This document shows, one piece after another, positions 3,912-21,498 of a stretch of 36,755 nt of DNA (position 1 is the stretch's first letter; each line of letters starts with the position of its first letter). The position numbers and the translations under genes were made by a program. The notes beneath the pieces were generated by a model. The model worked only from the letters and a program-made list of their open reading frames with translations. It searched no databases and was not told where the DNA came from. The stretch is from Deltaproteobacteria bacterium (lineage in GTDB: Bacteria; Desulfobacterota; WTBG01; CAIYCZ01; CAIRTM01). The stretch lies in the NCBI GenBank assembly GCA_024276465.1, contig JAJRXD010000003.1, positions 1 through 36,755 of the forward strand, written 5' to 3'.

Positions 3912-5102
3912 ATGATAAAACGTAGTATTTTCAATAAATTACGAGAAGAAATTTCCAACCCTGAAGTGCTTATCCTTCTCGGTGCACGGCAAGTCGGCAA
4001 AACAACTCTTTTAAAAGCTCTTGAAAAAGAATGCCGGCGAATGAATATTACAACAAAATTTTATGATCTTGAACAACCTCACCTGTTAGGCCAGTTCAAT
4101 CGACCGGAAGAGGAAATTCAGAGAAAAATAACAACAGCAGGAAAAGTTGTTTTTATTGATGAATTTCAATATATTGCAAACGCTTCAAAAATTTTCAAGT
4201 CAATTTTTGATTCTGCAAAACATGTTAAAATTATCTGTTCAGGCTCATCATCATTGGAAATACATAAACATTTGCAAGAAAGCCTTGCGGGTAGGCGTTT
4301 TCTGTATCGAATATTTCCACTTGCGTTTTTTGAGTTGAATTCCCAAACAGGAATGAACTTAAAAACCTATCTAAAGTATGGAGGAATGCCGGGGTTAACC
4401 AAAACCAATTCAGATGAGCGTAAGCAGCAAATTTTATCTGAACTATTAAGCAGTTATATTCTAAAAGATGTTAAATCTCTGGTAAAAGAGGAAAATCTAC
4501 GGGCATTCAACCATTTTCTATATCTCCTCGCAGAGAACCAGGGGTCTGTAATTTCAATTCATTCAATCGCAAATCAAGTCAAAATGAGTTCCAAAGCAGT
4601 CAACCGCTATCTGGATATACTTGAGGGAACATATGTCAATTTTCGAATATTCAGCTATTCACGAAATCTGGGCAATGAACTGAAGAAATCATGCAAGACA
4701 TATCTTTACGATATAGGCATCCGCAATGCACTTCTCAGGGACTTTTCATCCGTAAATCAACGACACGATAAAGGGATTCTTTTTGAGACTTTTGTTTTTC
4801 TTAGTCTCCAATCCAGATTAAAGCCCAATATGGAACTGAAATTCTGGAGAACAAAAGATGGTTATGAGGTAGATTTTATCCTGATCAAAAACCGCAAACC
4901 GTTTCCCATAGAGGTAAAAAGTCAGCTAACCTCCATACAGATTCCGAAAGGGTTAAAGCATTTTTTAAAACGTTACCCTGAAACAACAAAGGCTTTTGTT
5001 ATCAATGAAAAGCTTACCGAAACCCTTATGAGTGCAAATACTGAGATTCTGTTTCTCACTTTTAAAAATTTTGACAGCGATAATTTTTTCAAAATGATTT
5101 AA
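3912..5102 (+). CDS. AAA_14/DUF4143 ATPase
   Basis: A 396-residue P-loop ATPase. Walker A is LLGARQVGKTT (about residues 22-32) and Walker B is VVFIDEFQY (about 78-86). A winged-helix-like stretch follows (SIHSIANQVKMSSKAVNRYLDIL, about 218-240). The C-terminal DUF4143 domain carries the nuclease-like pattern FWRTKDGYEVDFIL...FPIEVKS (about 316-340), with the Asp and Glu-x-Lys of PD-(D/E)xK folds. Members are common in accessory regions, but their physiological role is not settled. No convincing ribosome site precedes the ATG. The relic at 403-707 belongs to the same family but differs in sequence, so it is not a recent copy. Confidence 0.85.
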   Translation: MIKRSIFNKLREEISNPEVLILLGARQVGKTTLLKALEKECRRMNITTKFYDLEQPHLLGQFNRPEEEIQRKITTAGKVVFIDEFQYIANASKIFKSIFDSAKHVKIICSGSSSLEIHKHLQESLAGRRFLYRIFPLAFFELNSQTGMNLKTYLKYGGMPGLTKTNSDERKQQILSELLSSYILKDVKSLVKEENLRAFNHFLYLLAENQGSVISIHSIANQVKMSSKAVNRYLDILEGTYVNFRIFSYSRNLGNELKKSCKTYLYDIGIRNALLRDFSSVNQRHDKGILFETFVFLSLQSRLKPNMELKFWRTKDGYEVDFILIKNRKPFPIEVKSQLTSIQIPKGLKHFLKRYPETTKAFVINEKLTETLMSANTEILFLTFKNFDSDNFFKMI

Positions 5103-5282: not shown

Positions 5283-6254
5283 ATGATAAAAACAACAGAT
5301 GAAACCTCAGATTATGATATCATCAACCTTTGCATTCAGGGAGATGGCTGCGCCTGGAGGAGCCTCTTTGAACGCTATAATGACTTCATAGACCATCAGA
5401 TAGTAAGAACCTTCCACCTGGACTATTATCCATACACAGAAGAAGATTTCGAGCAGGTAAAAGATAATATTATCGATATTCTTCTTGCCCCTGGAAATCT
5501 GAAAAAAATTGACACACCCAACAGGTTTAAACAGTGGCTTGCCCGCGTTTCCAGAAACAAAACCCATGATTTTGTGCGTGCAAAAAAAGCAATAAAAAAC
5601 TCTGTGGAAGAAGAAGCAGGGAAGTCTTCCCTGTCCCTCCAGAATCCCGTTGGTGCTGAGGGTGACTGTACACTTGAGGAGATGATAGGAGGTGGGAACC
5701 CCTATGCTGACAGACCAACAGATGATATTGCTGAAAAAACAAGAGAGTTTATCTCTTCTGTTGAATGGATTTACCAGATACCCCTTAAGCTTTACCTTAT
5801 ATTCTGTGATGATCTTCTTGTGTCTGAAGATATTAGAAAAATTGCCCGGGAAAGGGATGTAACTCTGACTATTGTTAAACAGGGGATAAACAGTATGCTT
5901 GAAAATCTTGTAAAGAAACATGAGAAAAACATTTGTCTCGAAGGTGAGATCAGAGTCACTGCTTCTTATCTGAATCGTTTGAAAGCACGGCTTGATTTTT
6001 TAAATCAAGCTGGCACAGGGAATAATGAAAGCATTAATAACATTAAACTAAACATACAACAGAGAGAATCACGCCTTGCAGACCTGATACAAAAAAACCC
6101 GAAGCCTGTGGTGCCCTCGAACCGGGAGATTGGTGAGGTGCTTGGCGTTAAGGAAGAAACCGTGGCAACAAGGCTTTTCAGGGTGAAAAAGATGATAAGA
6201 GAGCGTTGGAACAGGGACAAAGATAACCAGGAACAGAGTTGCAAAGGCACATAG
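5283..6254 (+). CDS. Sigma-70-family factor with two region-4-like HTHs
   Basis: A 323-residue sigma-like protein, far longer than a usual ECF sigma factor. Residues 12-103 look like region 2 (IINLCIQGDGCAWRSLFERY, then FKQWLARVSRNKTHDFVR). A first region-4-like HTH is at about 162-212 (IPLKLYLIFCDDLLVSEDI...VTLTIVKQGI). A helical linker (220-272) leads to a second HTH at about 279-310 (REIGEVLGVKEETVATRLFRVKKMIRERW). It is the first gene of the envelope cluster and is followed by an anti-sigma-like protease, so it probably directs transcription of the cluster. The last residues (QSCKGT) and the stop come from a repeat module also found at the end of the gene at 14253. No good Shine-Dalgarno precedes the ATG. 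Confidence 0.75.
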   Translation: MIKTTDETSDYDIINLCIQGDGCAWRSLFERYNDFIDHQIVRTFHLDYYPYTEEDFEQVKDNIIDILLAPGNLKKIDTPNRFKQWLARVSRNKTHDFVRAKKAIKNSVEEEAGKSSLSLQNPVGAEGDCTLEEMIGGGNPYADRPTDDIAEKTREFISSVEWIYQIPLKLYLIFCDDLLVSEDIRKIARERDVTLTIVKQGINSMLENLVKKHEKNICLEGEIRVTASYLNRLKARLDFLNQAGTGNNESINNIKLNIQQRESRLADLIQKNPKPVVPSNREIGEVLGVKEETVATRLFRVKKMIRERWNRDKDNQEQSCKGT

Positions 6255-6565
6255 GAACAGAGGATTAAAGCAAAAGAGGGGTAGGAGCGCATTCATGCGC
6301 GAAAGGATTTGGACAAGGGTACAGGAGCATAGGAAACAGGCACATAGGCACAAAGTTTAAAAATATCAAACAACAAGACACACAGCCAATGGGCATAAAA
6401 ATAAAAGGCTGACGCCTGAAATCCTGGGCTTACGCCTTAACTCCGGGAGAGATAAAACGGGTTTTTGGATTTTGGACTTTGACATTATTTTCTATGGCAT
6501 TTGTATTTTGAAATTTATTTCTGTTTTTTTTCGTCTAACATATATGGAAAACGGGAATTCTGAAA
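6255..6565 (+). repeat. Composite repeat spacer 1
   Basis: This 311-nt spacer holds no gene. In order it contains AGGCACATAGG/AACAGAGGATT units, a REP-like palindrome (6281-6313), more AGGCACATAGG units, two hairpin arms of the AAGGC-N4-GCCTT type (6404-6438), and the AAAACGGGTTTTT plus TTTGACATT leader (6455-6488). The same parts recur in the same order in the later spacers of the cluster. Confidence 0.8.
6281..6313 (+). repeat. REP-like palindrome 1
   Basis: GTAG foot, GA, then GCGCAT (6287-6292) and ATGCGC (6295-6300), followed by GAAAGGATTTGG. It resembles REP elements mobilised by RAYT transposases, whose hairpins carry a 5' GTAG foot. No RAYT gene is in the window. Confidence 0.75.
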
Positions 6566-8134
6566 ATGAATAAAAACAACTGTAGTGATGAGAAAGATTT
6601 GGAGATATTAAAACAGCTTTACAATCACTCTCTCAACAGAAGGCTTAATATGGCTGCCGCCCGCACAGGCACATCCTGTACAAAATATGGGGAAGACATG
6701 TGTGCTGACTACCTTGATCTTCTTCTTTCTGATGATAAAATAAAAGAATTTGAGCAGCATTTCACAAATTGTCATGCCTGTCTTACGACACTCATCAATT
6801 TAATAGAGGCAGATGAACGGGCAGCCAATGACTTTATCTCTACAGATATTAGTAAAAAAAAATCACTTAACAATGTTCTTGAAAGACTTTCAGAAAGAAA
6901 AAAACTCACACCTGAGACTGCTGAACCAATGCTTCTTGCCGCTTCCCCGGAAAGAAAAAAGTATGTAAGCTGTGCTTTCGGCATTGGGATCAATCTCCAG
7001 TCAGGGCAGGGTCAGGTGCTTGGATGCGTTGCGCACATATTTGAAGAAAACAAAAGAGGGGCTGGCCTTAACATTATTGGCAGCCAGGTTGAAGAACGGG
7101 AGATAGGAGGAAAACGCGTCAAAGTCACCCCTCCCCTTCTCATGGTTCAGGATCTGCTTGCAGTGGTTTTTAAAACCCAGCAATTCTTTAAAGCATATTG
7201 CTGCGAATCCCGCAGCATAACCATTCAAATTTCCCAGCAGCAGGAAGGGTTTTTAAGTGAAGGGCTGAGCCTCTCACTTGCAGCAGCAGTGGCAGTATAT
7301 TGTGCTCTGACCAGACGAAAGCTGCCCGGCAATATGGTTTTTTCAGGCAATCTTGAAATAACCGGCAGGCTCAATAAAATCAGCCACCTGCGGCTGAAAG
7401 CAAAGGTTGCCCTTGAAAACGGCAAAACCGTAATGGTCCTTCCAAAGTCAAATGAAAACGACCTTATTGATTTTACTGCAGAGGAAAAAAGATCTCTTGA
7501 ATTCTGTCTTTTTTCGACCCTTGAAGAGGTCTTTGAATACCTTGATACCATAACAGCTCAAAACACTGCGCGGGCTGTGACCAATTGCAACAGAAGAGGA
7601 TGGTGGAAACATATCCCCTTGCCCTGCTTCAGAAAAAATCGGGCTGGGAATTTCGCAAAATACGTTTTTTTGTTAACCGGCCTCTTTTTTCTTTTTGTTG
7701 TTTCTCTGTTTGTGACTGCCCCCTATTTTTATGATGAGGTCGAAATATATAACAAGACCAGATGCATTGTTAAAAACCCTCTGATTGGCAGTCTGTTTTC
7801 AAGTGTGCCAAACTACCCCCTTGTCAGCTTCAAACAGCAGATGGAAAAAATGGACCCTGAGGGGGCTTTTCGAAGTGCGATGAGAGTAGAGGATTTAAAA
7901 GATTATATCAGAGATGTCTACATGCCCCTTACAGGACTTTTTGAACAGGAGCAGTATGAAAACAGGCAGGCACTGACAGAAAGCACCCTGCGTTTTCTCA
8001 AGGGTGTGGACAAATACTCTCAGGATCCTGCAATGACAAGAAAAATACAGCGTGGCCTCCAGGCAGCAGCATGGATTGCAGAAAAATATGGAAATGAAGC
8101 GCTAATAAAAGAGGTTGAGAAAAGGCGCAAATAA
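6566..8134 (+). CDS. Anti-sigma-like membrane protein with Lon-type protease domain
   Basis: A 522-residue protein of three parts. (1) The cytoplasmic N-terminus has a zinc-binding anti-sigma motif: Cys46 and then His65-x3-Cys69-x2-Cys72, as in zf-HC2 proteins. (2) Residues 135-330 resemble the Lon proteolytic domain. The Lon DGPSAG loop corresponds to GFLSEG with Ser231, the NMVFSGNLEITGRLNKI strand pair follows, and the catalytic lysine position aligns with Lys278 in LRLKAKVALENG; VLPKSNENDL closes the domain. Both dyad residues are kept, so activity is plausible. (3) One membrane span (about 366-386) and a periplasmic tail of about 135 residues. Coming just after the sigma gene, it would hold the factor at the membrane and may destroy a regulator on signal. 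No ATPase domain is present. Confidence 0.7.
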   Translation: MNKNNCSDEKDLEILKQLYNHSLNRRLNMAAARTGTSCTKYGEDMCADYLDLLLSDDKIKEFEQHFTNCHACLTTLINLIEADERAANDFISTDISKKKSLNNVLERLSERKKLTPETAEPMLLAASPERKKYVSCAFGIGINLQSGQGQVLGCVAHIFEENKRGAGLNIIGSQVEEREIGGKRVKVTPPLLMVQDLLAVVFKTQQFFKAYCCESRSITIQISQQQEGFLSEGLSLSLAAAVAVYCALTRRKLPGNMVFSGNLEITGRLNKISHLRLKAKVALENGKTVMVLPKSNENDLIDFTAEEKRSLEFCLFSTLEEVFEYLDTITAQNTARAVTNCNRRGWWKHIPLPCFRKNRAGNFAKYVFLLTGLFFLFVVSLFVTAPYFYDEVEIYNKTRCIVKNPLIGSLFSSVPNYPLVSFKQQMEKMDPEGAFRSAMRVEDLKDYIRDVYMPLTGLFEQEQYENRQALTESTLRFLKGVDKYSQDPAMTRKIQRGLQAAAWIAEKYGNEALIKEVEKRRK

Positions 8135-8265
8135 AAAATAAATGTCAAAAGGACAGGGACAAAGGAATGTCAAAACTCAAATGATAAAACAGTGAGAAAA
8201 CAGCCAATGGGCAATGGCCAGTAAGCCACTGGAGTCAAGGCGTGAGCCTTTTAAAATCAACCAGA

Positions 8266-8311
8266 GGAGTTTACCTGTAAAGGTTTTATAAAAGGCTTAC
8301 GCCTTAACTCC
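8266..8311 (+). ncRNA. Three-way-junction repeat module, copy 1
   Basis: GGAGTT...AACTCC closing stem. Arm A is ACCT-GTAA-AGGT, with a GNRA-type loop. Arm B is AAGGC-TTAC-GCCTT (8292-8305). Structured-RNA status is inferred from pairing; this could also be a DNA palindrome. Confidence 0.5.
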
Positions 8312-8322
8312 CGGAAGAGATA

Positions 8323-8390
8323 GGAGTTAATCTGTAAAGGTTTTGGAATTAATCCGTAAGGATTTCATAAAAGGCTTACGCCTTAACTCC
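8323..8390 (+). ncRNA. Three-way-junction repeat module, copy 2 with doubled arm A
   Basis: Closing stem GGAGTTAA (8323-8330) with TTAACTCC (8383-8390). It contains two A arms, AATCT-GTAA-AGGTT with a G-U pair and AATCC-GTAA-GGATT (8351-8364), and one B arm AAGGC-TTAC-GCCTT. The different A stems keep pairing through compensating changes. Confidence 0.55.
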
Positions 8391-8441
8391 GGAAGAGATA
8401 AAACGGGTTTTTTTGACATTTTCTTTTTTGAGCTTCCCAGA

Positions 8442-8492
8442 GGAGTTAATCTGTAAAGATTTCATAAAATAAAAGGCTCACGCCTTAATTCC
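8442..8492 (+). ncRNA. Three-way-junction repeat module, copy 3
   Basis: GGAGTTAA (8442-8449) pairs with TTAATTCC (8485-8492) through one G-U wobble. Arm A is AATCT-GTAA-AGATT (8448-8461) and arm B is AAGGC-TCAC-GCCTT. The ribosome site of the next gene follows within 15 nt. Confidence 0.55.
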
Positions 8493-8506
8493 ATTAAGAG
8501 GTAAAT

Positions 8507-9646
8507 ATGAAACAAAAAACTGTTTTTTCAGCAGCCATGTTTTTTTTGATCCTGGCCTCATTTTCTAAAGCTGCAGACATAAGCACAGAGCCGTACTTTC
8601 GCATCCGCATGGATATTAAGGCAGAGAATGCTGACGCCCGTGAGGTTATCAACCAGCTTCAGAACATCCTTGTGAAAAGGGGAATTGTAATAACCAGAAA
8701 CAAACGCGACCCCAAGATAGAGGGAAATGTGGTGGTGTCGGACCATGAAGAAAAAAAGGTTAATCCGTACGATACCGGGGAGCTTACCATTCATGAAATT
8801 TCATTGTCACTCAAAGGACTGAAAATCAAAGATATCACGGGCAGCGTCCTTGCTTCCTATAAAACTTTTACCGGCTTTGAAAGCCATGAAATAAAAGACC
8901 TGGCATTTTCCGATGCAGCCAGGCAGATAATAGCACAGATATTGGAAACAGATTTTCTGCACCAGGTTTTAAATTCAGCACGCAGGCAGGATCTTATCAT
9001 TGCAACATCAGCTCAGGAGAATGAAGACATCCTGAGGCAGAAGATATTTGAGGTCCTCAATGACTACATGAGCCCCATAACAGAGGAGTTGAAGGTAACA
9101 GGAAAAGAGCTTAAATCAGCAATCAGGAAACTGGCAGAAGAGATGGCAAAACAGAAGAAAAGCACACCAGAAAAAATTCATGTTAACAGCGCGGAGTTGC
9201 AGAAAATCATTGCCGCATATGCTTCACAGCCAGTCCCAGAGCAGGATATGCTGTGCGAACTGAAATCTGAAGCTATTACATTGGATGGTTCAAGTAAAAA
9301 CATTACAGGTATCATTGTTAAAGCATCTGACCTGAACAATTTCAGGAGAATGCGTTTGCAGAGAATTTACACTGAAGACGGCTGTCTCGTTTTCGGAGGA
9401 AGGCGCAATCCTGATTTAAACCCTCTTATCTATTTTGACTCGCACGATTCCCTTATCCATTCTGATTTCAAGGTGGAGGTGCAAAAGCCTTTGATGGTAA
9501 AAGCACTGGGCCTTACAAAAAAAGGACATATTATTATTTCCAGCACTGATGCTGACAGGATACTTCTTGCAGACCATCAGTTACAGGGGAAAATCTTTTC
9601 CGAGGGAAGAATATTTGTTCTGACAGGGAAAAAGAAACAGAAATGA
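8507..9646 (+). CDS. Exported protein of unknown function
   Basis: A 379-residue protein with a signal peptide (MKQKTVFSAAMFFLILASFSKA, probable cut after residue 22). The first 170 residues alternate strands and helices (YFRIRMDIKAENADAREVINQLQ, LTIHEISLSLKGLKIKDITGSVLASYKTF, FSDAARQIIAQIL). This is reminiscent of the LPP20/FlgO/CsgG-type domains found elsewhere in the cluster, but I cannot assign it to them. A charged, probably coiled-coil middle (about 180-240) and a beta-rich C-terminus follow. AAGAGGT sits 6 nt before the ATG. It is the first of a series of periplasmic components after the sigma/anti-sigma pair. Confidence 0.75.
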   Translation: MKQKTVFSAAMFFLILASFSKAADISTEPYFRIRMDIKAENADAREVINQLQNILVKRGIVITRNKRDPKIEGNVVVSDHEEKKVNPYDTGELTIHEISLSLKGLKIKDITGSVLASYKTFTGFESHEIKDLAFSDAARQIIAQILETDFLHQVLNSARRQDLIIATSAQENEDILRQKIFEVLNDYMSPITEELKVTGKELKSAIRKLAEEMAKQKKSTPEKIHVNSAELQKIIAAYASQPVPEQDMLCELKSEAITLDGSSKNITGIIVKASDLNNFRRMRLQRIYTEDGCLVFGGRRNPDLNPLIYFDSHDSLIHSDFKVEVQKPLMVKALGLTKKGHIIISSTDADRILLADHQLQGKIFSEGRIFVLTGKKKQK

Positions 9647-9847
9647 TGCTCCCCTGACACATCGCAGTACAATCCAGTCAAGAATCTATCGATTCCCCTT
9701 TTTATATTCACACAAGTGAAATGAAAGATTGTTTTTTTGCGTCTTAATACTTTAAGACCTCTTATTGCCTTTATGGCCATCACTTCGAAATAGAATAGGG
9801 GCTTAAGCAAAGCTCTCTTTTAAAACACAATGTAAGGAGGAGAAAGC

Positions 9848-10375
9848 ATGGGTAAAAAGAATATTTTAACAGGAGGGTTTTTAATTTTATTATTTTCAAT
9901 TTTTACAGCAGGAGGATGCAGGTCAGCCCCGCAGCCTTCCCGGCCTGTAAGGCTTTCATGTGAGGAACAGTTGGGACAGTCCATATCCGATTTAAAACCC
10001 ATGGAAATCAGTATGTTTCTGGATCAGGCCCAAGAAAACGGAACAATCGAAAACTGCTGGATACCCATGATTAAAAAATGTCTTGACCTCCGCAGGGAGA
10101 TTCCTCACACGCACGTAAGATCTGCTGTTAAGACATTCAATCAGGTTCAGCACAAAGAATATTTTCACAAAGCTGTTTCCCGGTACTTTAATGACATGAT
10201 TTTCAGCATTGAAGATGAAAATGTCCGTTACCGGAAACAGGACCGGGGTTTTCTCACAGCTTATCTAAGGTATCTCCTGAGGGAATGCACAAGCAGAAAC
10301 TGCCCTGAATTGACAACTGCGAGGCAGGTGTGCAGCAGGCTTGATCCGGATCTTTACAGTAAGTTTTTTGATTAA
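9848..10375 (+). CDS. Lipoprotein of unknown function
   Basis: A 175-residue protein with a lipoprotein signal (ILFSIF-TAGGC, Cys24) and a strong AAGGAGG ribosome site. The mature part is mostly helical and rich in Cys (conserved-looking pairs at WIPMIKKC and LLRECTSRNC...VCSRL), which suggests disulfides in the periplasm. I recognise no family. The spacer before it (9647-9847) is one of two within the cluster that lack the repeat modules; it holds only a GTCTTAA/TTAAGAC hairpin at 9741-9758. The next gene starts 24 nt after its stop, so these two are co-transcribed. Confidence 0.75.
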   Translation: MGKKNILTGGFLILLFSIFTAGGCRSAPQPSRPVRLSCEEQLGQSISDLKPMEISMFLDQAQENGTIENCWIPMIKKCLDLRREIPHTHVRSAVKTFNQVQHKEYFHKAVSRYFNDMIFSIEDENVRYRKQDRGFLTAYLRYLLRECTSRNCPELTTARQVCSRLDPDLYSKFFD

Positions 10376-10399
10376 ATATCAGCAAGGGAGAGAAAAATC

Positions 10400-11446
10400 A
10401 TGTTTCATAAAATAAAAACAAATAAAAAGTTATTTTTATGGATTGTCAGCAGTTTTGCCGTGCTTTTTATGGCCCTGGCTGCCCACGCACAAATACCCCC
10501 CGGTGACCGTGCCGTGGAGATAAGCAAAAGGGCTCGTGAGAGTGTAAACCGAAGCGGCAAACAGCTTGTGTCCTCAAGCAAGGCTTTTTTTCAGGCCTTT
10601 GCAGCCAATACTTCAAAATTGCAGGAGATTATAGATACTAAAAAAGCTTTGAAAAATTCCGGTATGCTTGACAGCAACGAGGCTATTGAACCGAACCTGA
10701 ATGCACGCTTCATGGTTGCCGTGGGAGAATTAAAGGAAGCCTGTGACAAACATATCCTTGAGCTTAAACGTTCTCTTGAAATATTTGAGGAGAGCATTGC
10801 AAAGGCTATTGTTAATACCCAGGATGTAAAATCCATCAACTCGAACTATGAGCTGGCGCTGAAAGAATTTAAAAAACATGAACAAAAGAAGTATGACAAG
10901 GCAGAAAAAAAGGCAATGGGCGTGCTTGAGGCCTGTAATCAGGGTGACAAGCATGCGTGCAACAGGTACAGAAGCATGAAAGGAAAGCTCATGTCCATAA
11001 GCCAGCAGGTACGGTTGTACCAGACCAAGGTCAAAATTGCCCAGATGAACCAGAGGCTTGGCGCTGCCATGCGCAACAAAATAAAAAATGACGGTCCGGA
11101 AATAGCTTACAAAATGAGAAATGTTCTTACCCATCTTTATGCGTCATTTCATAAGATTGCAGACATAATGGAAGTAGGTGGCCCTGACTTGAAAAGAGCC
11201 ATAACACACGGGATTTGGGGGGGATTAAGCACAGATGAGCTTAATGAAAATCTTGACCTTGCAATCGAGTCCATAGAAAAACTAAATTCAACAATAGATA
11301 CAATGGTAGATTCCATTCTGGCTGATCTTGACGGGGTTCAGTCTCCAACAGAAGGTATCAGTTCCGGGCTTTCAGGAGCGCAGGTAAATGCAGAAGAAGA
11401 ACTTGAATCTTTAAGCAGGCTGAGACAGAGCACGTTTGGGGGATAA
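10400..11446 (+). CDS. Exported helical protein of unknown function
   Basis: A 348-residue protein with a signal peptide (KLFLWIVSSFAVLFMALAAHA, cut near residue 30) and a good GGGAGAG ribosome site. The mature chain is almost wholly predicted helix with heptad character (AVEISKRARESVNRSGKQLVSSSKAFFQAF and SISQQVRLYQTKVKIAQMNQRL), interrupted by a Cys pair (LEACNQGDKHACNRY). It is probably an elongated periplasmic helical-bundle or scaffold component. It lies 24 nt after the lipoprotein gene, and repeat modules resume right after its stop. Confidence 0.75.
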   Translation: MFHKIKTNKKLFLWIVSSFAVLFMALAAHAQIPPGDRAVEISKRARESVNRSGKQLVSSSKAFFQAFAANTSKLQEIIDTKKALKNSGMLDSNEAIEPNLNARFMVAVGELKEACDKHILELKRSLEIFEESIAKAIVNTQDVKSINSNYELALKEFKKHEQKKYDKAEKKAMGVLEACNQGDKHACNRYRSMKGKLMSISQQVRLYQTKVKIAQMNQRLGAAMRNKIKNDGPEIAYKMRNVLTHLYASFHKIADIMEVGGPDLKRAITHGIWGGLSTDELNENLDLAIESIEKLNSTIDTMVDSILADLDGVQSPTEGISSGLSGAQVNAEEELESLSRLRQSTFGG

Positions 11447-11514
11447 GCATAAATGTCGAAGATAACATCCAGGCACATAGGATTAGAGGATTGAAGGATT
11501 AAAGCAAAACAGAT

Positions 11515-11568
11515 GCAGGAGCGCATTCCCCGCAAGCGGGATCGTTCGACATGCGCGAAAGGATTTGG
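11515..11568 (+). repeat. REP-like palindrome 2, long form
   Basis: GCGCAT (11521-11526) pairs with ATGCGC (11551-11556). The loop contains a second hairpin, CCCGC-AA-GCGGG (11529-11540). The GTAG foot is changed to GCAG here. Confidence 0.75.
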
Positions 11569-11633
11569 ATAAAGGAAACAGGCACATAGGAACAAAGGCA
11601 CAAAGTTTAAAAATATCAAATGGCATTAAAATA

Positions 11634-11677
11634 AAAGGCTGACGCCTTAACTCCTGGAATTAATCCGTAAGGATTTC
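11634..11677 (+). repeat. Partial junction module (arm B then arm A)
   Basis: AAGGC-TGAC-GCCTT followed by AACTCC and then AATCC-GTAA-GGATT (11662-11675). The arms occur in reverse order compared with the complete modules, so they cannot form the closed junction. The actual ribosome site of the next gene (AAAGGGAT) lies further down. Confidence 0.6.
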
Positions 11678-11707
11678 AATAAACTTTTAAACGAAAGGGA
11701 TTAAACC

Positions 11708-12436
11708 ATGATAAGGTTAATATTTACAAAGCGTTTTCTAATTATACTGATCTGTTTTGCTGCAGCTGGTTTTTATCATGTCCGTACGCTCTTTGCACAG
11801 GACACTGGCACAACTTCCCTTCTGGAATATTATAACACAACAGACAGGGACACGCTTGACAGAAGTACTGAGGAGATGACAGGTAAGCTGAAGGGGATAT
11901 TTAACAAGAAAAAAATCGAGCAAACCGAAGCTGAACTTGATTTCAGTAAATACCATACCAGCTTCAAGAACCTTTTCCTCTATATAAACAAGATTGCCGG
12001 TTATACTGACTATGAAGAAAATATAAAATTCGGACGGGATAAGGAAATCTACAAATTGCTTCCTCTTGAAGGTGAAATAAAACCTGATAAAAAAGCGGTT
12101 GTAGATGAAAAATACAAACGCCTTGAAGAAATTACCAGAGAGGAAATCTTCACCTGTCAGGAGATGATTGAGAGCTCTTTTGATGCCTGTGAACTCTATA
12201 CAGAAACGCTTTTCTGGGGAGAAAAGTTTTTCAGCAATCCAGGTTCTAAGGAGACAATGATGGATTTTTTTGAAAGCGACCTGTTCAGAAAATATCAGGA
12301 AGAAAACAGAGCACTTGTTATGAAAGCATATCCTGAGTATGTCAGCCGTATCGACCGTCTTGTTTTTCTTTGGAAAGAAAAACCTTTGAAACCGACATCA
12401 CCTCTGATCGATCCTGATATTGTGGAAAATCTGTAA
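11708..12436 (+). CDS. Exported protein of unknown function
   Basis: A 242-residue protein starting with a signal peptide or N-terminal anchor (KRFLIILICFAAAGFYHVRTLFAQ, possible cut near residue 30). The mature part is acidic and largely helical (DTLDRSTEEMTGKLKGIF, EEITREEIFTCQEMIESSFDACELY), with one Cys pair. No family was recognised. AAAGGGAT lies 7 nt before the ATG. Its size and helical composition recall the gene product at 10400, but I see no clear sequence similarity. Confidence 0.7.
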   Translation: MIRLIFTKRFLIILICFAAAGFYHVRTLFAQDTGTTSLLEYYNTTDRDTLDRSTEEMTGKLKGIFNKKKIEQTEAELDFSKYHTSFKNLFLYINKIAGYTDYEENIKFGRDKEIYKLLPLEGEIKPDKKAVVDEKYKRLEEITREEIFTCQEMIESSFDACELYTETLFWGEKFFSNPGSKETMMDFFESDLFRKYQEENRALVMKAYPEYVSRIDRLVFLWKEKPLKPTSPLIDPDIVENL

Positions 12437-12534
12437 GAAAAGGTCAAAGATAACATCCAGGGGCAGAGGATTGAAGGATTAGAGGACAGGGATCCTCCTT
12501 CGCTCTGCGAGCTTCGGCAGGACAGGCAAGAGAG

Positions 12535-12567
12535 GTAGGAGCGCATTTATGCGCGAATGGATTGGGG
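12535..12567 (+). repeat. REP-like palindrome 3
   Basis: GTAG foot, GCGCAT-TT-ATGCGC core (12541-12554), then GAATGGATTGG. Just upstream (12490-12530) is another palindromic piece, CCTTCGCTCTGCGAGCTTCGG. Confidence 0.75.
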
Positions 12568-12592
12568 AAAAGCCAATGGACAATAAGCCACT

Positions 12593-12627
12593 GGAGTTAA
12601 CCCGGAATTAATCCGTAAGGATTTTTT
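12593..12627 (+). promoter_or_regulatory. Hairpin containing the ribosome-binding site of the next gene
   Basis: This is an arm-A hairpin, AATCC-GTAA-GGATT (12610-12623), in which AAGGA (12617-12621) stands 6 nt before the ATG at 12628 and is the only ribosome site available. The site is therefore partly in the loop and partly in the stem of the repeat hairpin. That could limit ribosome access. Confidence 0.6.
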
Positions 12628-14070
12628 ATGTTCTTCTATAATAAAAAAGGCCGTCGTACTTTGTCAGGAAAAATTTTTTTTGACAGTGATGGTAATTTAA
12701 AGGCAGGCACTGTTGGCGTGTCTGCTGTTATAGCTTTTATCCTCCTGATTGCCATGGCAGTCCAGATTAAAAAACCTGCTGAACAGGCTGTTGTCAAGGT
12801 AACACATCTGTTTAAAGCTGACCCCCGGGTAAACAATAAACAGGATGGGGCTGAAAAACAAAAATCTGATCAGAACATAGGCAAACAGCCTGAAAAATCA
12901 GAAAAGCAGGAAGAAACAAAAAAGGCACAGGAAGTCCTTCCCCGCGGGCATGAAGAAGAAAAAGAACTTATGGCTGTAAAAGAGGAAATCCGGAAGATGA
13001 AGGAAGAGACAGCGGGGATAAAAGCAGAAGCGGAAGAAACGCTTGAAGAAGCACGGAAGATAAAAGATGAAGCACAAAAGATGAAGGAGTATGTGAGGAG
13101 TAAACTTGCGCGAAAAGACAAAAAAACAGAGAAACTTAAAAATAAGCTTGCAATGCAGGGAGCATCCTTAAAACAGGCAGAGAGAAAAAACACCACGCAG
13201 CAGGAAAAACTTGCCAGGGAAGAAGAAAAGTTGCCGAAAGCTGAAACAAAGATGCATGAACCTGATAAGTCAGTGGAGGTAAAGGAAAAGGCAGATTTTA
13301 CACTGAAAAAGAGCGTGGAGGTAAAAGACGAAACTGTTAAATTCAGTCAGACTTCTAACAAGGTTAAAGAAAAAACTCGAAAACCTGGCAAAAGCCTTAC
13401 AGCCATTACAGACGCCAGAGCCTTTTCGTCTTCAGACAGACGGATGGACTCCATTAAACTGCTCCCTGAAAACTATACAAAGATTTACAGGGCACGATTT
13501 GCAAGCAGTAAAAAAAAACCTGCTCTGCTTTACCGCTGGCGTATTTCAAACCAGTACAGATTGAAACTTAAAGACTGTTACAGCCTTTTTGACATGAAGG
13601 CCGTGGCTGTCACAAAAAACGGGCAATACTATGATTTGAGCGACAATACTCAGATCACAGAAGACTACCTTGACCGGAATTATTCAAGCACAGTGATAAT
13701 CTGTGAAAATCCTGAATTTGATTTTGGAGATCAGATTGAAAAGACAGGTATCAGGACAGAGGGCTTAAAAGTCAGATATTACATGTACAATCATACAAAA
13801 AACTATTTTTACAACCGGGTGGAACAGGCTGTATCCTGCTGCCAGGCTGCTGGCAAACTTCCGTCAGGCGAGGAGATAAAGGAACTTATAGATGTTGTTG
13901 GCACAGTATTTAAACTGAAAAAAACCGGGGGTGCATTCGGGGTATTTGTCCCAACATCAGTTTATTATAAAAAACCAGGATCAGGTTCTGCAGAAGAAAT
14001 AAGTGTACCTGCAGAATGCTTTGAGGAAGAGATGGATGTTAAGCTGCTTAAAGCAAAAGGTTTGTTGTAA
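12628..14070 (+). CDS. TolA-like membrane-anchored coiled-coil protein
   Basis: A 480-residue protein with the plan of TolA/TonB-type transducers. It has a short cytoplasmic N-terminus, a single membrane span (about residues 27-47, GTVGVSAVIAFILLIAMAVQI), and a very long Lys/Glu-rich helical region (about 65-260, with repeated EEIRKMKEETAGIKAEAEE and VEVKEKADF/VEVKDETVKF units). A globular periplasmic C-terminal domain of about 210 residues follows (YRWRISNQYRLKLKDCY... to the end) with several Cys. The sequence is not recognisably TolA. The role is inferred from shape and from the TolQ/ExbB- and TolR/ExbD-like genes directly downstream. Its ribosome site lies in a repeat hairpin. Confidence 0.65.
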   Translation: MFFYNKKGRRTLSGKIFFDSDGNLKAGTVGVSAVIAFILLIAMAVQIKKPAEQAVVKVTHLFKADPRVNNKQDGAEKQKSDQNIGKQPEKSEKQEETKKAQEVLPRGHEEEKELMAVKEEIRKMKEETAGIKAEAEETLEEARKIKDEAQKMKEYVRSKLARKDKKTEKLKNKLAMQGASLKQAERKNTTQQEKLAREEEKLPKAETKMHEPDKSVEVKEKADFTLKKSVEVKDETVKFSQTSNKVKEKTRKPGKSLTAITDARAFSSSDRRMDSIKLLPENYTKIYRARFASSKKKPALLYRWRISNQYRLKLKDCYSLFDMKAVAVTKNGQYYDLSDNTQITEDYLDRNYSSTVIICENPEFDFGDQIEKTGIRTEGLKVRYYMYNHTKNYFYNRVEQAVSCCQAAGKLPSGEEIKELIDVVGTVFKLKKTGGAFGVFVPTSVYYKKPGSGSAEEISVPAECFEEEMDVKLLKAKGLL

Positions 14071-14130
14071 TGAAATTATATCCGGAGGTTATTATAAAAA
14101 TTGGAGTTAATATATCGGAGTTAATCTGTC

Positions 14131-14184
14131 GGAGTTAATCTGTAAAGATTTTATTAAAATAAAAGGCTGACGCCTTAAATCCGG
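14131..14184 (+). ncRNA. Three-way-junction repeat module, copy 4
   Basis: GGAGTTAA with TTAAATCC (one mismatch) closes arm A, AATCT-GTAA-AGATT (14137-14150), and arm B, AAGGC-TGAC-GCCTT. Two further partial GGAGTTAAT starts lie in tandem just upstream (14103 and 14118), a sign of local unit duplication. Confidence 0.5.
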
Positions 14185-14252
14185 GAAAGACTAAAACCTT
14201 AAATGATCGGTGTTTTGGCATTTAAGCTTCCTTGTTTCCAGGAGTATAAACA

Positions 14253-14882
14253 ATGAACATTCTTTTTGTTGAATTTCTGGTCAAAAATTTAGGAATAATA
14301 TTCACCCTCATCTTCCTTGTTTATCTGTGCCTTATGGCTATAAGAATAGTAAAAATTCATAATGTGCTCAGGTACACAGCAACAGATAAAAACAAACAAC
14401 TTATCCCCCTCTCACTTCCATTTTTAAAGACTCAGTTTGAAATGCTGCAAAATGCATGCAAATCTGAAAACAGCATACTTATTGAAAACCGCATTGAGCA
14501 GCTATGGATCAAGTATGAACATATGGTTCAGACCCATTTTGCCGCAATAAACGGTTACATTTACTCCCTCATGCTGTGGGGATTTACAGGCACCATCTGG
14601 GGTACAATCAAGGCTTTCAGCAGGATGGGTGAAACGCTCTTTGAAAAAGACATACAGGCAGCTGAAGCACTTTCATCAGCACTTCAGGGGGGCTTGAACA
14701 TTGCTCTTTATACTTCTCTGGTTGCAGCAACCATCGGGGCTGTTATGGTAACATATATCTATTCAAAACAGATGTATGAAAAATCCAAACTCATGGAAGC
14801 AGCAATAAATAACGAGATTTACAGGGTTGTTGAAAAGGCAGGGACACAGGTGGAGCAGGCACAGAGTTGCAAAGGGGCATAG
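14253..14882 (+). CDS. MotA/TolQ/ExbB-family proton-channel protein
   Basis: A 209-residue inner-membrane protein. Membrane spans are at about 8-31, 100-122 and 148-172. The conserved family core is present: GFTGTIWGTIKAF, then SSALQGGLNIALYTSLVAATIGAVMVTYIY, corresponding to the LGLLGTVxG and ALxxTxxGLxxAIP segments of ExbB/TolQ. Family members form a pentameric stator around an ExbD/TolR dimer and convert proton flow into movement. The partner is the gene at 15155 and the likely transducer is the gene at 12628. The C-terminal residues QSCKGA and the stop are supplied by a repeat unit, as in the sigma gene. AGGAG lies upstream of the start. Confidence 0.85.
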   Translation: MNILFVEFLVKNLGIIFTLIFLVYLCLMAIRIVKIHNVLRYTATDKNKQLIPLSLPFLKTQFEMLQNACKSENSILIENRIEQLWIKYEHMVQTHFAAINGYIYSLMLWGFTGTIWGTIKAFSRMGETLFEKDIQAAEALSSALQGGLNIALYTSLVAATIGAVMVTYIYSKQMYEKSKLMEAAINNEIYRVVEKAGTQVEQAQSCKGA

Positions 14883-14915
14883 GCACAGAGGATTGAAGGA
14901 TTAGAGTAAAACAGA

Positions 14916-14948
14916 TGTAGGAGCGCATTTATGCGCGAATGGATTGGG
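14916..14948 (+). repeat. REP-like palindrome 4
   Basis: TGTAG foot, GCGCAT-TT-ATGCGC core, GAATGGATTGG tail. It is identical in core to copy 3 and lies in the same orientation. Confidence 0.75.
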
Positions 14949-15004
14949 GTAAAGAACATAATATAAATATCAAATGATAAAAGAATAAAACCACTGAACT
15001 ACTC

Positions 15005-15126
15005 ATGAGTTTTTTGACATTTTTGTTTTTGAACTTCATTTGGCATTTGGATTTTGAACTTTGACATTTTATTATAAAAGGCTCACGCCTGAATTCCGAG
15101 CTTAACAGGAGTTAACCCTTAAGGAA
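15005..15126 (+). repeat. TTTGACATT-rich leader and partial junction module
   Basis: It begins with GAGTTTTTTGACATTTTTG, then ATTTGGCATTTGGATTTTG and AACTTTGACATT. An AAGGC-TCAC-GCC arm and GGAGTTAACCCTTAAGGAAC follow. This is the common leader block of the cluster, here placed before the partial junction module rather than after it. Confidence 0.65.
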
Positions 15127-15154
15127 CTTTTTTACACAAACAACGAGTAACCAA

Positions 15155-15628
15155 ATGATTTTTCGCGGACGAAAACATCGGGGCGGTGATTTATTTTCCC
15201 AGGTACAGGATCCTGGCAAGGATCTGTTTGCCTATCTTTTTCTTGTAATGTTGATATTTTCCTTTATTATTCTTCTTACGTATGAACAGAAGGTGCGACG
15301 GGAAGCAGTCCAGCAAAGCCCCACTGAGATATCACAGGGAAGCAGCTCCCTGATCACTCTGAATACAGGACAGATCGGCAGGCTCGTAAAACGCGAAGAA
15401 AAGGTTTGTCTGCTGTTTGGAGAAAAGACATACTTTCCTGACACGGACATTGCTGTTATGGAAAAAGATGGTATTATAAAACAGGTTTCCCGTAATGGCA
15501 GGAAGGCAAAAGTTCTATATTTAAAAGAAGATCCCCGCAGCAGCATATACCTGAAGGAATACCTGGAAACCTTTTCTGCACTGAGCCAGCACGGAATTGA
15601 TATAGCTTTCGCCCGGCAAATGAAGTAA
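15155..15628 (+). CDS. TolR/ExbD-like membrane protein
   Basis: A 157-residue protein with one N-terminal membrane span (about 23-43, DLFAYLFLVMLIFSFIILL). It is preceded by the Asp at the mouth of the span that is essential in ExbD/TolR (PGKD-LFAYLF, Asp23). A periplasmic domain of about 110 residues follows (ITLNTGQIGRLVKREEKVCLLFGEKTYF... KVLYLKEDPRSS). The overall size and Asp placement fit ExbD/TolR, but the periplasmic part is divergent. Its position directly after the TolQ/ExbB-like gene supports a stator pair. Only a weak CGAG site precedes the ATG. Confidence 0.7.
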   Translation: MIFRGRKHRGGDLFSQVQDPGKDLFAYLFLVMLIFSFIILLTYEQKVRREAVQQSPTEISQGSSSLITLNTGQIGRLVKREEKVCLLFGEKTYFPDTDIAVMEKDGIIKQVSRNGRKAKVLYLKEDPRSSIYLKEYLETFSALSQHGIDIAFARQMK

Positions 15629-15700
15629 GTTGAAAGAAATGTCAAATGTAAAAAACAATGAGAAAAACAGCCAATGGGCAATAGCCAATAAGCATAAAAA

Positions 15701-15809
15701 TAAAAGGCTCACGCCTTAAATCCGGAAGAGATAAAACGGGTTTTTTTGGCATTATTTCATTTGGCATTTGGATTTTGAACTTTGACATTTTCCCTTTTAG
15801 GTTTCATTT
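15701..15809 (+). repeat. Composite repeat leader
   Basis: An AAGGC-TCAC-GCCTT arm, then ATCCGGAAGAGATAAAACGGG with a T run, then TTTGGCATTTGGATTTTG, AACTTTGACATTTT and CCCTTTTAGGTTT. The final AGG is the only ribosome site for the caspase gene. The gene at 17301 uses the same CCTTTTAGGTTT leader. Confidence 0.7.
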
Positions 15810-16922
15810 ATGAAAAAAATATCATTGTTTTTTACCATTCTAATATTAGCAGTTCCCTGCTTTTCCCATGCAACTGTTTCCGAACACCGCATTGCCCTGG
15901 TCATCGGTAACGGCAGTTACAAATTCTCACCTCTTGCAAACCCTGTTAATGATGCAAACGATATTGCCCGGGCACTGTCCAGATGCGGGTTTGAGGTGAC
16001 AAAAAAAACAGACTGCACCCGTAAAGAGATGCGCAGCGCTATCAGAAACTTTGGTGACAAAATCAAAAAAGGAGGGGTCGGGCTTTTTTACTATGCCGGA
16101 CATGGCATACAGGTTAAAGGAGAGAATTATCTGGTACCGGTGGGAACAACTGTTGACAGGGAGTATGAAGTAATAGATGAATGCATAAGTGCATCAAGCG
16201 TACTTCGATCAATGGACTATGCAGGCAACCGGTTAAACATTATTATTCTTGATGCATGCCGTGATAACCCCTTTAAGAGAAGCTTCAGGTCATCCTCTCT
16301 GGGACTTGCACGGATGGACGCGCCAACAGGTTCATTTCTCGCATATGCAACTTCTCCCGGAGCAGTTGCCATAGATGGAACCGGCAGAAATGGTTTGTAC
16401 ACTGCAAAGCTCTTAAAACACATGGAAACTCCCAACCTGCCAATTGAAGAAGTATTTAAAAGGGTGCGTGTTGATGTGGTCAGCGAAACAAACAAACAGC
16501 AGGTACCCTGGGAGTCATCCTCACTGATGGGCAAATTTTTTTTTGCAGGTGCAGAAAGAGGAATAACTGTCAGGGAAAAAACAATATTAGAAGATACTGT
16601 AAAAACAGGAACTGTTTTCATTTCAGGAAGCCCTGAAGAAGCCAAGGTATATCTTGACGGGTATTATGAGGGAACAATGCCTTGCAGAATAACTAACATA
16701 GAATCCGGCAGCCATAAGGTCAAAGTAAAGAAGCAGGGATATAAAGACTGGGAGAAAAAGATAAGAGTCACAAAGGGGCATACAGTTGATGTTACAGTAA
16801 ATTTGGAAAGGCAGCCAGTACTGTCTGAAAAGAATTTTATTAATTCCATAATTGAGATGCTGACTCGCAGGCATCATATGGATGGCAAGAGCAGAAGGGG
16901 TGGTGGGCCATCCTGTAAATGA
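15810..16922 (+). CDS. Periplasmic caspase-family protease with PEGA domain
   Basis: A 370-residue protein with a signal peptide (MKKISLFFTILILAVPCFSHA). Residues 26-248 form a peptidase C14 (p20-type) domain: RIALVIGNGSY, NPVNDANDIARALSRCGFEV, catalytic His98 in FYYAGHGIQ, catalytic Cys150 in LDACRDNP, then SFLAYATSPG. Both dyad residues are present. Residues 266-331 are a PEGA domain (GTVFISGSPEEAKVYLDG, ITNIESGSHKVKVKKQGY), a surface-binding module. It would act in the periplasm on an unknown substrate. In this cluster candidates are the coiled-coil transducer or cell-envelope proteins. It is likely co-expressed with the TolQ/R-like genes upstream and the lytic transglycosylase downstream. 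Confidence 0.9.
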   Translation: MKKISLFFTILILAVPCFSHATVSEHRIALVIGNGSYKFSPLANPVNDANDIARALSRCGFEVTKKTDCTRKEMRSAIRNFGDKIKKGGVGLFYYAGHGIQVKGENYLVPVGTTVDREYEVIDECISASSVLRSMDYAGNRLNIIILDACRDNPFKRSFRSSSLGLARMDAPTGSFLAYATSPGAVAIDGTGRNGLYTAKLLKHMETPNLPIEEVFKRVRVDVVSETNKQQVPWESSSLMGKFFFAGAERGITVREKTILEDTVKTGTVFISGSPEEAKVYLDGYYEGTMPCRITNIESGSHKVKVKKQGYKDWEKKIRVTKGHTVDVTVNLERQPVLSEKNFINSIIEMLTRRHHMDGKSRRGGGPSCK

Positions 16923-17020
16923 CAAAGAGATAACACACAGGCACAGAGGGACATAGGCACCAGGCACAAAGTTGCAAAGGCACAGAGGGACAAAGGATTA
17001 GAGGATTGAAGCAAAACAGA

Positions 17021-17073
17021 TGTAGGAGCGCATTCCCCGCAAGCGGGATCTTCGACATGCGCGAAAGGATTTG
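17021..17073 (+). repeat. REP-like palindrome 5, long form
   Basis: TGTAG foot. GCGCAT pairs with ATGCGC across a loop holding CCCGC-AA-GCGGG. The tail is GAAAGGATTTGG. Confidence 0.75.
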
Positions 17074-17142
17074 GGAATAGGGAATAGCCAATAGGCAATG
17101 GGCAATGGGCAATGGGCAATGGGTAATAGCCAATGGACAATA
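17073..17142 (+). repeat. Tandem heptamer array, 10 units
   Basis: Ten consecutive 7-nt units on the pattern GGCAATG/GGCAATA, with variants GGGAATA, GCCAATA, GGTAATA and GACAATA. Four central units are identical (GGCAATG, 17094-17121). Confidence 0.9.
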
Positions 17143-17149
17143 AACTACA

Positions 17150-17208
17150 GGAGTTAATCCGGAATTAACCTGTAAAGGTTTCATAAAAGGCTTACGCCTT
17201 AACTCCGG
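17150..17208 (+). ncRNA. Three-way-junction repeat module, copy 5
   Basis: GGAGTTAA (17150-17157) pairs perfectly with TTAACTCC (17199-17206). An alternative outer stem is CCGGAATTAA (17159-17168) with TTAACTCCGG (17199-17208), one mismatch. Arm A is AACCT-GTAA-AGGTT (17167-17180). Arm B is AAGGC-TTAC-GCCTT. Confidence 0.55.
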
Positions 17209-17300
17209 GAGAGATAAAACAGAGTTTTTTGACATTATTGTTTTTGGATTTCATTTGACATTTGAATTTTGAACTTTGACATTATCCTTTTAGGTTTTTC

Positions 17301-18047
17301 ATGAAAACAATACAAAATCTGATTTTAATCCTCTTTTTAATGGCGCTTTCAGGGAAGGACCAGGCACAGTCCAATCCATGGAAACAGCTCCAGGAAGTGT
17401 TTCCTGAAGAAGATAAAAAGACTGAAGAAACAGAACAGTATGACCCATGGGCTGAGATGAGAAAGGTTTTTCTGCCCTTTACAGCAACAGAGGAAGAAGA
17501 AGCGCTTACAGACAGTAAAAAAGCAGCATCCTTTTCTAATAAGATCATCAAGCCTCTTAAGCCATATCTGAATCTGATAAAAGAATGTTCGAAAATATTT
17601 GATGTGCCACAGGAAATAATCGGTGCTGTAGTGCTTGTTGAGTCTGGAGGGAACCCAAAAGCTTCAGCCAGCACAAGCAGTGCAAAAGGACTTATGCAGA
17701 CAATAAAAAGCACCTTTAGAGACGCATATGCATCACTAAAAGCGCAGGGAATAAAGATTAAAAATGATCCGTTTAATCCCCGTGCATCTCTTTATGCAGG
17801 CACCTGGTATCTTAACCATGTCTTTGGCAGAGTGCAAAAGGATAATCCATCCCAAGCCATTTCCCGCTTTGAGATTGAGGACTGGTGCACACCTGCAAAA
17901 TACTATTATGCAGGGCCTGGCTGGGGCGCACAGAAAGAGGAAATAATTATCACCTATATTGACGGAAAAAAACTTGTGGTTGACAAACAGACATACTGCA
18001 GGAAAGTTATGCAATATGCAAGGCTGCTTAGAAATGTGATGGAATGA
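17301..18047 (+). CDS. SLT-family lytic transglycosylase
   Basis: A 248-residue exported enzyme (signal peptide in MKTIQNLILILFLMALSG...). Residues 88-215 form a lysozyme-like SLT domain: YLNLIKECSKIFDVPQEIIGAVVLVESGG with catalytic Glu114, then NPKASASTSSAKGLMQ, and NPRASLYAGTWYLNHVF. Such enzymes cleave the MurNAc-GlcNAc bond of peptidoglycan, often to open gaps for envelope machines. Before the domain sits a short internal duplication, NPWKQLQEVF (25-34) and DPWAEMRKVF (48-57), possibly two docking motifs. The leader CCTTTTAGGTTT is shared with the caspase gene. Confidence 0.88.
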   Translation: MKTIQNLILILFLMALSGKDQAQSNPWKQLQEVFPEEDKKTEETEQYDPWAEMRKVFLPFTATEEEEALTDSKKAASFSNKIIKPLKPYLNLIKECSKIFDVPQEIIGAVVLVESGGNPKASASTSSAKGLMQTIKSTFRDAYASLKAQGIKIKNDPFNPRASLYAGTWYLNHVFGRVQKDNPSQAISRFEIEDWCTPAKYYYAGPGWGAQKEEIIITYIDGKKLVVDKQTYCRKVMQYARLLRNVME

Positions 18048-18294
18048 AGCAGGGATGACAAATGACAAAACCCCTGGGAAACAATGTCAAATATCAAACC
18101 CCAAAGTTCAAATCAATGACAAATGCCAAAGATCAAAGTTCAAAGGAATGTCAAATCACAAAGCTCAAATTACAAGGAATTTGATTCAGGTTTTTTTGGC
18201 ATTGTTTTTTTTTGAAATTCATTTGGCATTTGGATTTTGACATTTGACATTAAACCCTTTGGCCTTAACCCATTCGGCATTTCAATGGATAACT
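18048..18294 (+). repeat. Long imperfect inverted repeat spacer
   Basis: The left half (18058-18150) consists of AATGTCAAAT, AATGACAAATGCCAAA and CAAAGTTCAAA units. The right half (18194-18251) is their inverse, ATTTGGCATTTGGATTTTG and ACATTTGACATT. The transcript could fold into a long stem. No REP or junction module is present. AATGGATAACT supplies a GGA ribosome site for the ATG at 18295. Confidence 0.65.
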
Positions 18295-18951
18295 ATGAAA
18301 CACACAATTATTTTACCGTTAATGGCCTTTCTTTTGCTTCTGCCGTTTAATACCAGTTATGGAGAAGACAATACTTCTGCTTTAAATAGCTGTGCTCCAG
18401 ATCCAGTGCTTTTAGAGCTTGAAAAACAGTTGCAAGGAGCCATGCTGGAATATGGTTTTCCCGATACTTTGACCAGAAGTTTCAGCCTCCGGGGAAACCT
18501 GAAGATTGGCGTACCGAAAGAAATTGCAAAATCAGCGCAATTCCTCTCACAGAAATATTCATGCAATGTGATTTGTGATATTGTTGTGCAGGATGCTGTA
18601 TCAAAAGCCATCCTTTTCAGTGTTACAGAGACTTTTACGGATATCGGCCGAACTTCAGAAAGTACGCGAAAGTATGCCCTCGGTAAAGTTGTCCGGCATC
18701 TTTTTAATAAAATAAAGGAATCAAAAATAGATGCCCTTGGCTTTTCAGACACCAATATGGTCTTTAAAGACCTTGAAGAACAGGAAAAAATCCTGGGCAG
18801 ACATACAGCTGTTTTGTCAGATTTTGTTGATGACATTATTGATAATGCTTATGATAAAACAGCAGGGCAGACACACAGGATCAAAGGCACAAAGGAGTTA
18901 AGACGTGAGCCTTTTAAAACAGAAAAAGGAATGACACGTTCTGTAAAATGA
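18295..18951 (+). CDS. Exported protein of unknown function
   Basis: A 218-residue protein. The ATG at 18295 is chosen because a signal peptide follows (MKHTIILPLMAFLLLLPFNTSYG); an in-frame TTG at 18244 lies in repeat DNA. The mature part has a helix-strand pattern (LLELEKQLQGAMLEYGF, SCNVICDIVVQDAVSKAILFSVTETF, YALGKVVRHLFNKI) loosely like the FlgO/CsgG-type domains of the next gene; no firm family. The last 20 or so residues (KGTKELRREPFKT...) are encoded by an inverted repeat-module arm, so the C-terminus has been remade by repeat DNA. Confidence 0.7.
   Translation: MKHTIILPLMAFLLLLPFNTSYGEDNTSALNSCAPDPVLLELEKQLQGAMLEYGFPDTLTRSFSLRGNLKIGVPKEIAKSAQFLSQKYSCNVICDIVVQDAVSKAILFSVTETFTDIGRTSESTRKYALGKVVRHLFNKIKESKIDALGFSDTNMVFKDLEEQEKILGRHTAVLSDFVDDIIDNAYDKTAGQTHRIKGTKELRREPFKTEKGMTRSVK
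18896..18922 (-). repeat. Inverted junction-module arm B inside a coding region
   Basis: GGAGTTAAGACGTGAGCCTTTTAAAA is the reverse complement of the usual AAAAGGCTCACGCCTTAACTCC end, here with one change. It encodes the C-terminal tail of the gene at 18295. Confidence 0.7.
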
Positions 18952-19061
18952 AAAGAATTTAAATGTTTTTACGTCTGATAATAGCATAATTAAGGAGCAG
19001 AATTTTTCAAATCAATGTCAAATGACTAAAGGCCAGGGACAAAGAATTAAAGCAAAACAGA

Positions 19062-19113
19062 TGTAGGAGCGCATTCCCCGCAAGTGGGATCTTCGACATG
19101 CGCGAATGGATTG
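19062..19113 (+). repeat. REP-like palindrome 6, long form
   Basis: TGTAG foot and GCGCAT/ATGCGC stem. The inner hairpin is CCCGC-AA-GTGGG, where the single change from the other long forms keeps a G-U pair. Confidence 0.75.
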
Positions 19114-19169: not shown

Positions 19170-19176
19170 AACTACA

Positions 19177-21435: not shown

Positions 21436-21498
21436 CAGTTGAAAATGTCAAAGATAACAACCAGGCACATAGGATTAGAGGATTGAAGCAAAACAGAT

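Follow-up and report, generated by a model that had tools for sequence, protein, structure and literature searches.

Can a membrane-bound anti-sigma factor carry the very protease that sets its sigma factor free? Anti-sigma factors of the RseA, RsiW and RskA type are released by separate proteases. The question was raised by one gene in the window, i.e., the whole stretch of 36,755 nucleotides of a Deltaproteobacteria genome that was analysed. The open reading frame at 6566-8134 encodes a product of 522 aa, here called ZAS-Lon; this gene and all features described in it are on the plus strand. Four parts follow each other in the chain: a zinc anti-sigma (ZAS) domain of residues ~38-90 (6677-6835) with C38, H65, C69 and C72, a Lon-type P domain of residues ~130-331 (6953-7558) with profile and fold matches, a transmembrane helix of residues 367-385 (7664-7720) and a C-terminal tail of residues 386-522 (7721-8131). 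A sequence-only reading of the DNA had proposed this union of anti-sigma domain, Lon domain, membrane span and tail, and the layout was supported by the present analysis. The same holds for the missing ATPase, as an AAA+ domain gave no match in Pfam at E values up to 1. A misread piece of a canonical Lon was ruled out by the 522-aa frame without ATPase and by its retention in two other Deltaproteobacteria MAGs, with 46 % identity over the ZAS-Lon part in G008 (VGSH01000033) and 26 % in G075 (JAJRXV010000171). On the best reading of sequence and models, the product is a predicted membrane-anchored class I (ZAS) anti-sigma factor with a built-in ATP-independent Lon-type (S16) protease domain in its cytoplasmic half.

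The Lon domain was recognised on two levels, by profile and by fold. The profile Lon_C (PF05362), proposed in the sequence-only reading as a check, scored 33.7 bits (E 3.6e-8) over residues 232-325, the Pfam cut-off being 21.1 bits, while the match to ChlI, a related fold, stayed just under its cut-off. The best matches in NCBIfam were two LonB models (E 3.8e-8 and 1.0e-7). For the homologue in G075 Pfam gave no Lon_C match, yet NCBIfam matched LonB across the whole domain (E 6.7e-7). The AlphaFold2 model of the full-length protein, based on a three-row alignment, had a low mean pLDDT of 50.5, and only the Lon core, with a pLDDT mostly of ~45-83, and the helices were used, among them a helix at 363-397 around the membrane span. 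In the structure comparison, residues 130-331 of the model superimposed on E. coli Lon (3wu6) with a Z score of 16.8 over 180 residues at 3.0 A, and BrxL (8emc) was matched with a Z score of 16.9. The G075 homologue, folded as its own query, reached a mean pLDDT of 65.7 and matched ComM (Z 20.6), LonBA (Z 19.6) and E. coli Lon (Z 19.5); the two models are not fully independent, because both were built from the same three rows. The Lon P-domain fold characteristic of peptidase family S16 was thus present in both models. Lon-fold domains of RadA, ComM and BrxL were among the best structural matches, with ComM and RadA equal to Lon. The fold by itself is therefore no proof of protease activity, and these matches count in favour of another explanation, namely a degenerate, non-catalytic Lon domain that, like those of RadA and ComM, would help the protein to oligomerise or to sense a ligand; ZAS-Lon would then be an ordinary anti-sigma factor that other proteases release. 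With an ambiguous fold, the case for a protease rests on the active-site residues that have been kept.

In a gapless alignment the motif S-E-G-L-S of ZAS-Lon was placed opposite K-D-G-P-S of solved Lons, which makes Ser235 (7268-7270) the Lon serine and Lys278 (7397-7399) the Lon lysine. Their spacing of 43 residues, as expected for the Ser-Lys dyad of family S16, equals that of S679 and K722 in E. coli Lon. Ser260 (7343-7345) occupied the position of the conserved active-site threonine of Lon (T704 in E. coli). In an alignment with nine Lons from related genomes, Ser235 and Lys278 fell on the invariant dyad and Ser260 on the conserved threonine, and the placement was the same against LonA, LonB and RadA of the three genomes with a ZAS-Lon gene. 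By this equivalence with solved Lons, Ser235, as proposed nucleophile, and Lys278, as proposed general base, would form the active site. The sequence-only reading had also argued for a protease, and the Lon fold and the conservation of Ser235, Ser260 and Lys278 speak for that claim, but the serine it had named, Ser231, was the wrong one: it aligns with a lysine in LonA (K-D-G-P-S-A-G) and a valine in LonB and was ruled out as nucleophile. Homologues lacking Ser231 and Lys278 had been named there as grounds to drop the protease; both homologues keep Ser231, Ser235 and Lys278.

These residues also weigh against a dead Lon domain. Ser235, Ser260 and Lys278 are invariant in all three ZAS-Lon proteins at 22-46 % identity, as are S231, E232, C38, H65, C69 and C72, with 44 invariant columns among 271 (16 %) in the three-protein alignment; since three homologues are known in total, conservation rests on few sequences. 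At the three active-site positions the true LonA and LonB proteins of the same genomes carry S/T/K, whereas their RadA proteins have lost the whole set (G or A, C or I, and R, respectively). The motif G-P-S-A-G, the LonA form, was not found: ZAS-Lon of the window and of G008 has G-L-S-L-S, that of G075 V-S-S-L-T. This deviation, and the loss of the glycine before the serine in G075, favour a non-catalytic domain and may mean an altered oxyanion site. However, LonB, also a member of S16, shows G-D-S-A-S rather than G-P-S-A-G, and the G-x-S-x-S of ZAS-Lon is closer to E-G-D-S-A-S in the LonB of this genome than to the LonA motif. Purified YlbL without its membrane helix gave no protease activity (PMC6051672), a point against the reading as an anti-sigma factor with its own protease. 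Taking both sides together, we regard a dead Lon domain as rather unlikely.

The anti-sigma domain was examined in the same way. The sequence-only reading had relied on a zf-HC2-like motif. The zf-HC2 score of 13.7 bits was under the Pfam cut-off of 22.2 bits, a gathering score that is a library threshold and not essential to class I membership, but the residues C38, H65, C69 and C72 were invariant in the three homologues and anti-sigma factors ranked at the top of a PDB search, so that the call was upheld apart from its score. The zinc motif is absent from many class I anti-sigma domains; where present, it has been described across helices 2 and 3 (PMC7406223). In both models the H-x3-C-x2-C motif (H65, C69, C72) spans the second and third helix, at residues 56-68 and 70-91 in the window protein. 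A profile of ~57 residues of the ZAS region, made from the three homologues and searched against 177,635 PDB sequences, ranked RsrA (E 0.0024), DdvA (E 0.18) and 3hug_B (E 0.56) first. RsrA and DdvA carry anti-sigma factor names in the result table, and 3hug_B is an anti-sigma factor as well. The RsrA model TIGR03988 also matched ZAS-Lon (E 0.0028). Motif, resemblance to known anti-sigma factors and an adjoining ECF gene at all three loci, three marks of class I (ZAS), were found together.

The proposed client is the product of the gene directly upstream (5283-6254, plus strand), an ECF-like sigma factor of 323 aa. It matched TIGR02937 (sigma70-ECF) with 43.0 bits at a cut-off of 42.9 bits and SigW in the PDB with E 3.5e-4. 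Homologues with ~40 % and ~25 % identity in the aligned part stand at the same place at the other two loci, with weaker TIGR02937 matches (20.9 and 40.1 bits). In all three sigma proteins, regions 2 and 4 are set unusually far apart by a stretch of poor conservation. The sigma gene lies directly upstream of the ZAS-Lon gene at three of three loci, and separate searches with a sigma profile and with the ZAS-Lon protein found both families in exactly the same three of 395 genomes of the phylum. Adjacency and identical distribution are good evidence for a joint function of the two proteins, and they support the anti-sigma role beside the sigma gene that had been suggested from the sequence. An operon is not assured, because the two genes are separated by a gap of 311 bp (6255-6565) full of short repeats that are common throughout the genome. 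Related short repeats fill the intergenic gaps of the cluster from 6203 to 21613. Their core, TAGGAGCGCATTYATGCGCGA, had 48 copies in the genome at up to one mismatch and none in the reversed control, which ruled the repeats out as sigma-specific sites.

Within the phylum the family is small. In the 395 genomes only three members covering the anti-sigma part were obtained with the protein and the three-row profile; the remaining matches covered the catalytic half only, most of them in frames of ordinary Lon length. A scan of genome contigs with two short patterns, which is not exhaustive, returned the same two homologues, and no ZAS-Lon homologue was present in viral contigs or in plasmids. 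Separate from this family, a frame of 162 aa at G000:C169:22218-22682 (L073) consists of a Lon-type P domain alone, with glycine in place of the catalytic serine and the lysine kept.

The hydrophobicity of the chain revealed a single strong hydrophobic helix at 367-385, with a net charge of +4 on its N-terminal side and of -1 on its C-terminal side. From this charge bias the ZAS and Lon domains are predicted in the cytoplasm and the tail outside, in the periplasm. The homologues have three (G008) and one (G075) hydrophobic helices, an odd count in each. The C-terminal tails of the homologues show no mutual resemblance. In G075 the last 66-70 residues of ZAS-Lon share 74-77 % identity with the C-terminal end of the protein encoded next, which looks secreted; this fits a sensing role for the tail. 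The tail copies at this locus, L039:2508-2720 and L039:3566-3778, point to a shared tail domain.

The whole is best explained, with a probability of about 0.5, by a membrane ZAS anti-sigma factor with its own Lon-type protease, whose self-cleavage frees the sigma factor. The ZAS domain would tether the sigma factor to the membrane until the periplasmic tail senses a signal. This signal, perhaps together with assembly of a Lon-like ring, would activate the Lon domain, which would then cut a flexible cytoplasmic segment of ZAS-Lon, either within the same chain or in a neighbouring copy; the linker at ~91-130 or at 332-365 is the most likely site. The cut would free the sigma factor, and one chain would do the work of both the protease CalpL and the anti-sigma factor CalpT. 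By analogy to the action of CalpL on CalpT in trans, cleavage in a linker would be the cleavage most easily explained (PMC11417357, PMC12751052). More tentatively, the protein may be a complete single-protein switch, in which the tail senses a periplasmic signal, the own Lon domain cuts the chain and the sigma factor is freed, the first cut needing no site-1, site-2 or AAA+ protease.

With an active protease the main competing explanation is destruction of the sigma factor: once bound to the ZAS domain, the sigma factor (or a different regulator in the cytoplasm) would be passed on to the tethered Lon domain and degraded there, and proteolysis would be part of the inhibition. ZAS and Lon are directly joined and both predicted on the cytoplasmic side, the long and little conserved part that separates sigma regions 2 and 4 could serve as substrate, and LonC degrades unstructured substrates without ATP (PMC3391209). 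A folded sigma factor would, however, resist a protease without unfoldase, LonC being poor on well-folded proteins (PMC3391209), and in the known precedents it is the anti-sigma factor that is cut, not the sigma factor. We consider such a device unlikely. Very improbable is a membrane protease that controls how much of another protein is present and uses the ZAS-like part as a substrate- or zinc-binding module: the zf-HC2 score under the curated cut-off and membrane Lon-domain proteins with other adaptors, e.g., YlbL with its PDZ domain (PMC6051672), would allow it, but the adjoining sigma genes, the identical genome distribution and the anti-sigma factors in the first three places of the PDB ranking speak against it.

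Self-cleavage of a membrane anti-sigma factor by its own Lon domain can be set against several known systems. The closest is CalpL/CalpT/CalpS, a CRISPR-associated Lon-SAVED protease with its anti-sigma substrate and the corresponding ECF sigma factor (PMC11417357, PMC12751052). Both systems comprise an ATPase-free Lon-type domain, an anti-sigma factor and an ECF sigma factor, which form one switch there and are proposed to do so here. In Calp, Lon and anti-sigma factor are separate proteins and a SAVED domain is the sensor for cA4, whereas in ZAS-Lon the two are fused and the tail is probably periplasmic. PADLOC models matched with the Lon part only (residues 233-330; CRISPR-Lon E 1.6e-6, SAVED-Lon-TM E 2.2e-6), Pfam gave no match to a SAVED or CARF sensor domain in the protein, and among the annotation names of the neighbouring genes none was cas-like. 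YlbL of B. subtilis likewise has a Lon domain anchored in the membrane, a Ser-Lys dyad (S234/K279) and no ATPase, but it has a PDZ domain and probably acts extracellularly on YneA (PMC6051672), whereas ZAS-Lon has a ZAS domain and a Lon domain predicted in the cytoplasm. Pfam gave no PDZ match in ZAS-Lon, and its Lon domain is N-terminal to the sole membrane helix. LonC of Meiothermus taiwanensis is a Lon protease domain that works without ATP (PMC3391209); its large N-terminal part may include an AAA-like domain that is non-functional, whereas ZAS-Lon has no such part and is membrane-bound. LonA and LonB differ by the AAA+ ATPase in the same chain. With anti-sigma factors of the RseA, RsiW and RskA type ZAS-Lon shares the N-terminal anti-sigma domain, one helix, a periplasmic tail and an adjoining ECF gene (PMC7406223), but it carries a protease domain between the anti-sigma domain and the membrane. 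Anti-sigma factors that cut their own chain are known from the FoxR/FecR type and RsgI (PMC11637429, PMC12203970). FoxR cuts itself by a non-enzymatic N-O acyl shift in a periplasmic domain, with no protease domain taking part (PMC11637429), so that cleavage by such a domain would follow another path. Each component has a precedent: ZAS anti-sigma factors, ATP-independent Lon domains, membrane Lon proteins and the control of a sigma factor by Lon are all known. No publication on a Lon domain and an anti-sigma domain in one protein was found in an incomplete literature search; as far as this search shows, the union of both domains in one chain appears to be new.

The genes downstream look envelope-related: a MotA/TolQ/ExbB-like protein (14253), a caspase-PEGA protein (15810), an SLT transglycosylase (17301), a FlgO/CsgG/DUF4384 protein (19288) and an OmpA protein (22482). 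This neighbourhood suggests an envelope-related control and is no proof of a regulon. The MotA/TolQ/ExbB-type channel protein is followed, within 14253-15628, by a small one-helix membrane protein, at a guess an ExbD/TolR-like partner. In two distant genomes an apparently secreted caspase-type protein (Peptidase_C14) shares the cluster with the sigma/ZAS-Lon pair, at 15810-16919 in the window and, downstream of the pair, at L039:3850-5751 in G075. Upstream, an AAA_14/DUF4143 ATPase (3912-5102) matched the PADLOC candidate defence model PDC-S01 with E 7e-94.

As a rule, several separate proteases act one after another to remove a membrane anti-sigma factor. If the proposed self-cleavage is true, a regulator that brings along its own protease would greatly shorten the path between envelope signal and transcription. 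It would also connect ordinary envelope signalling with the CRISPR Calp system, in which Lon and anti-sigma factor are separate proteins. One molecule, its active-site residues apparently intact as judged from the alignment, may hold its own switch locked and also cut it.
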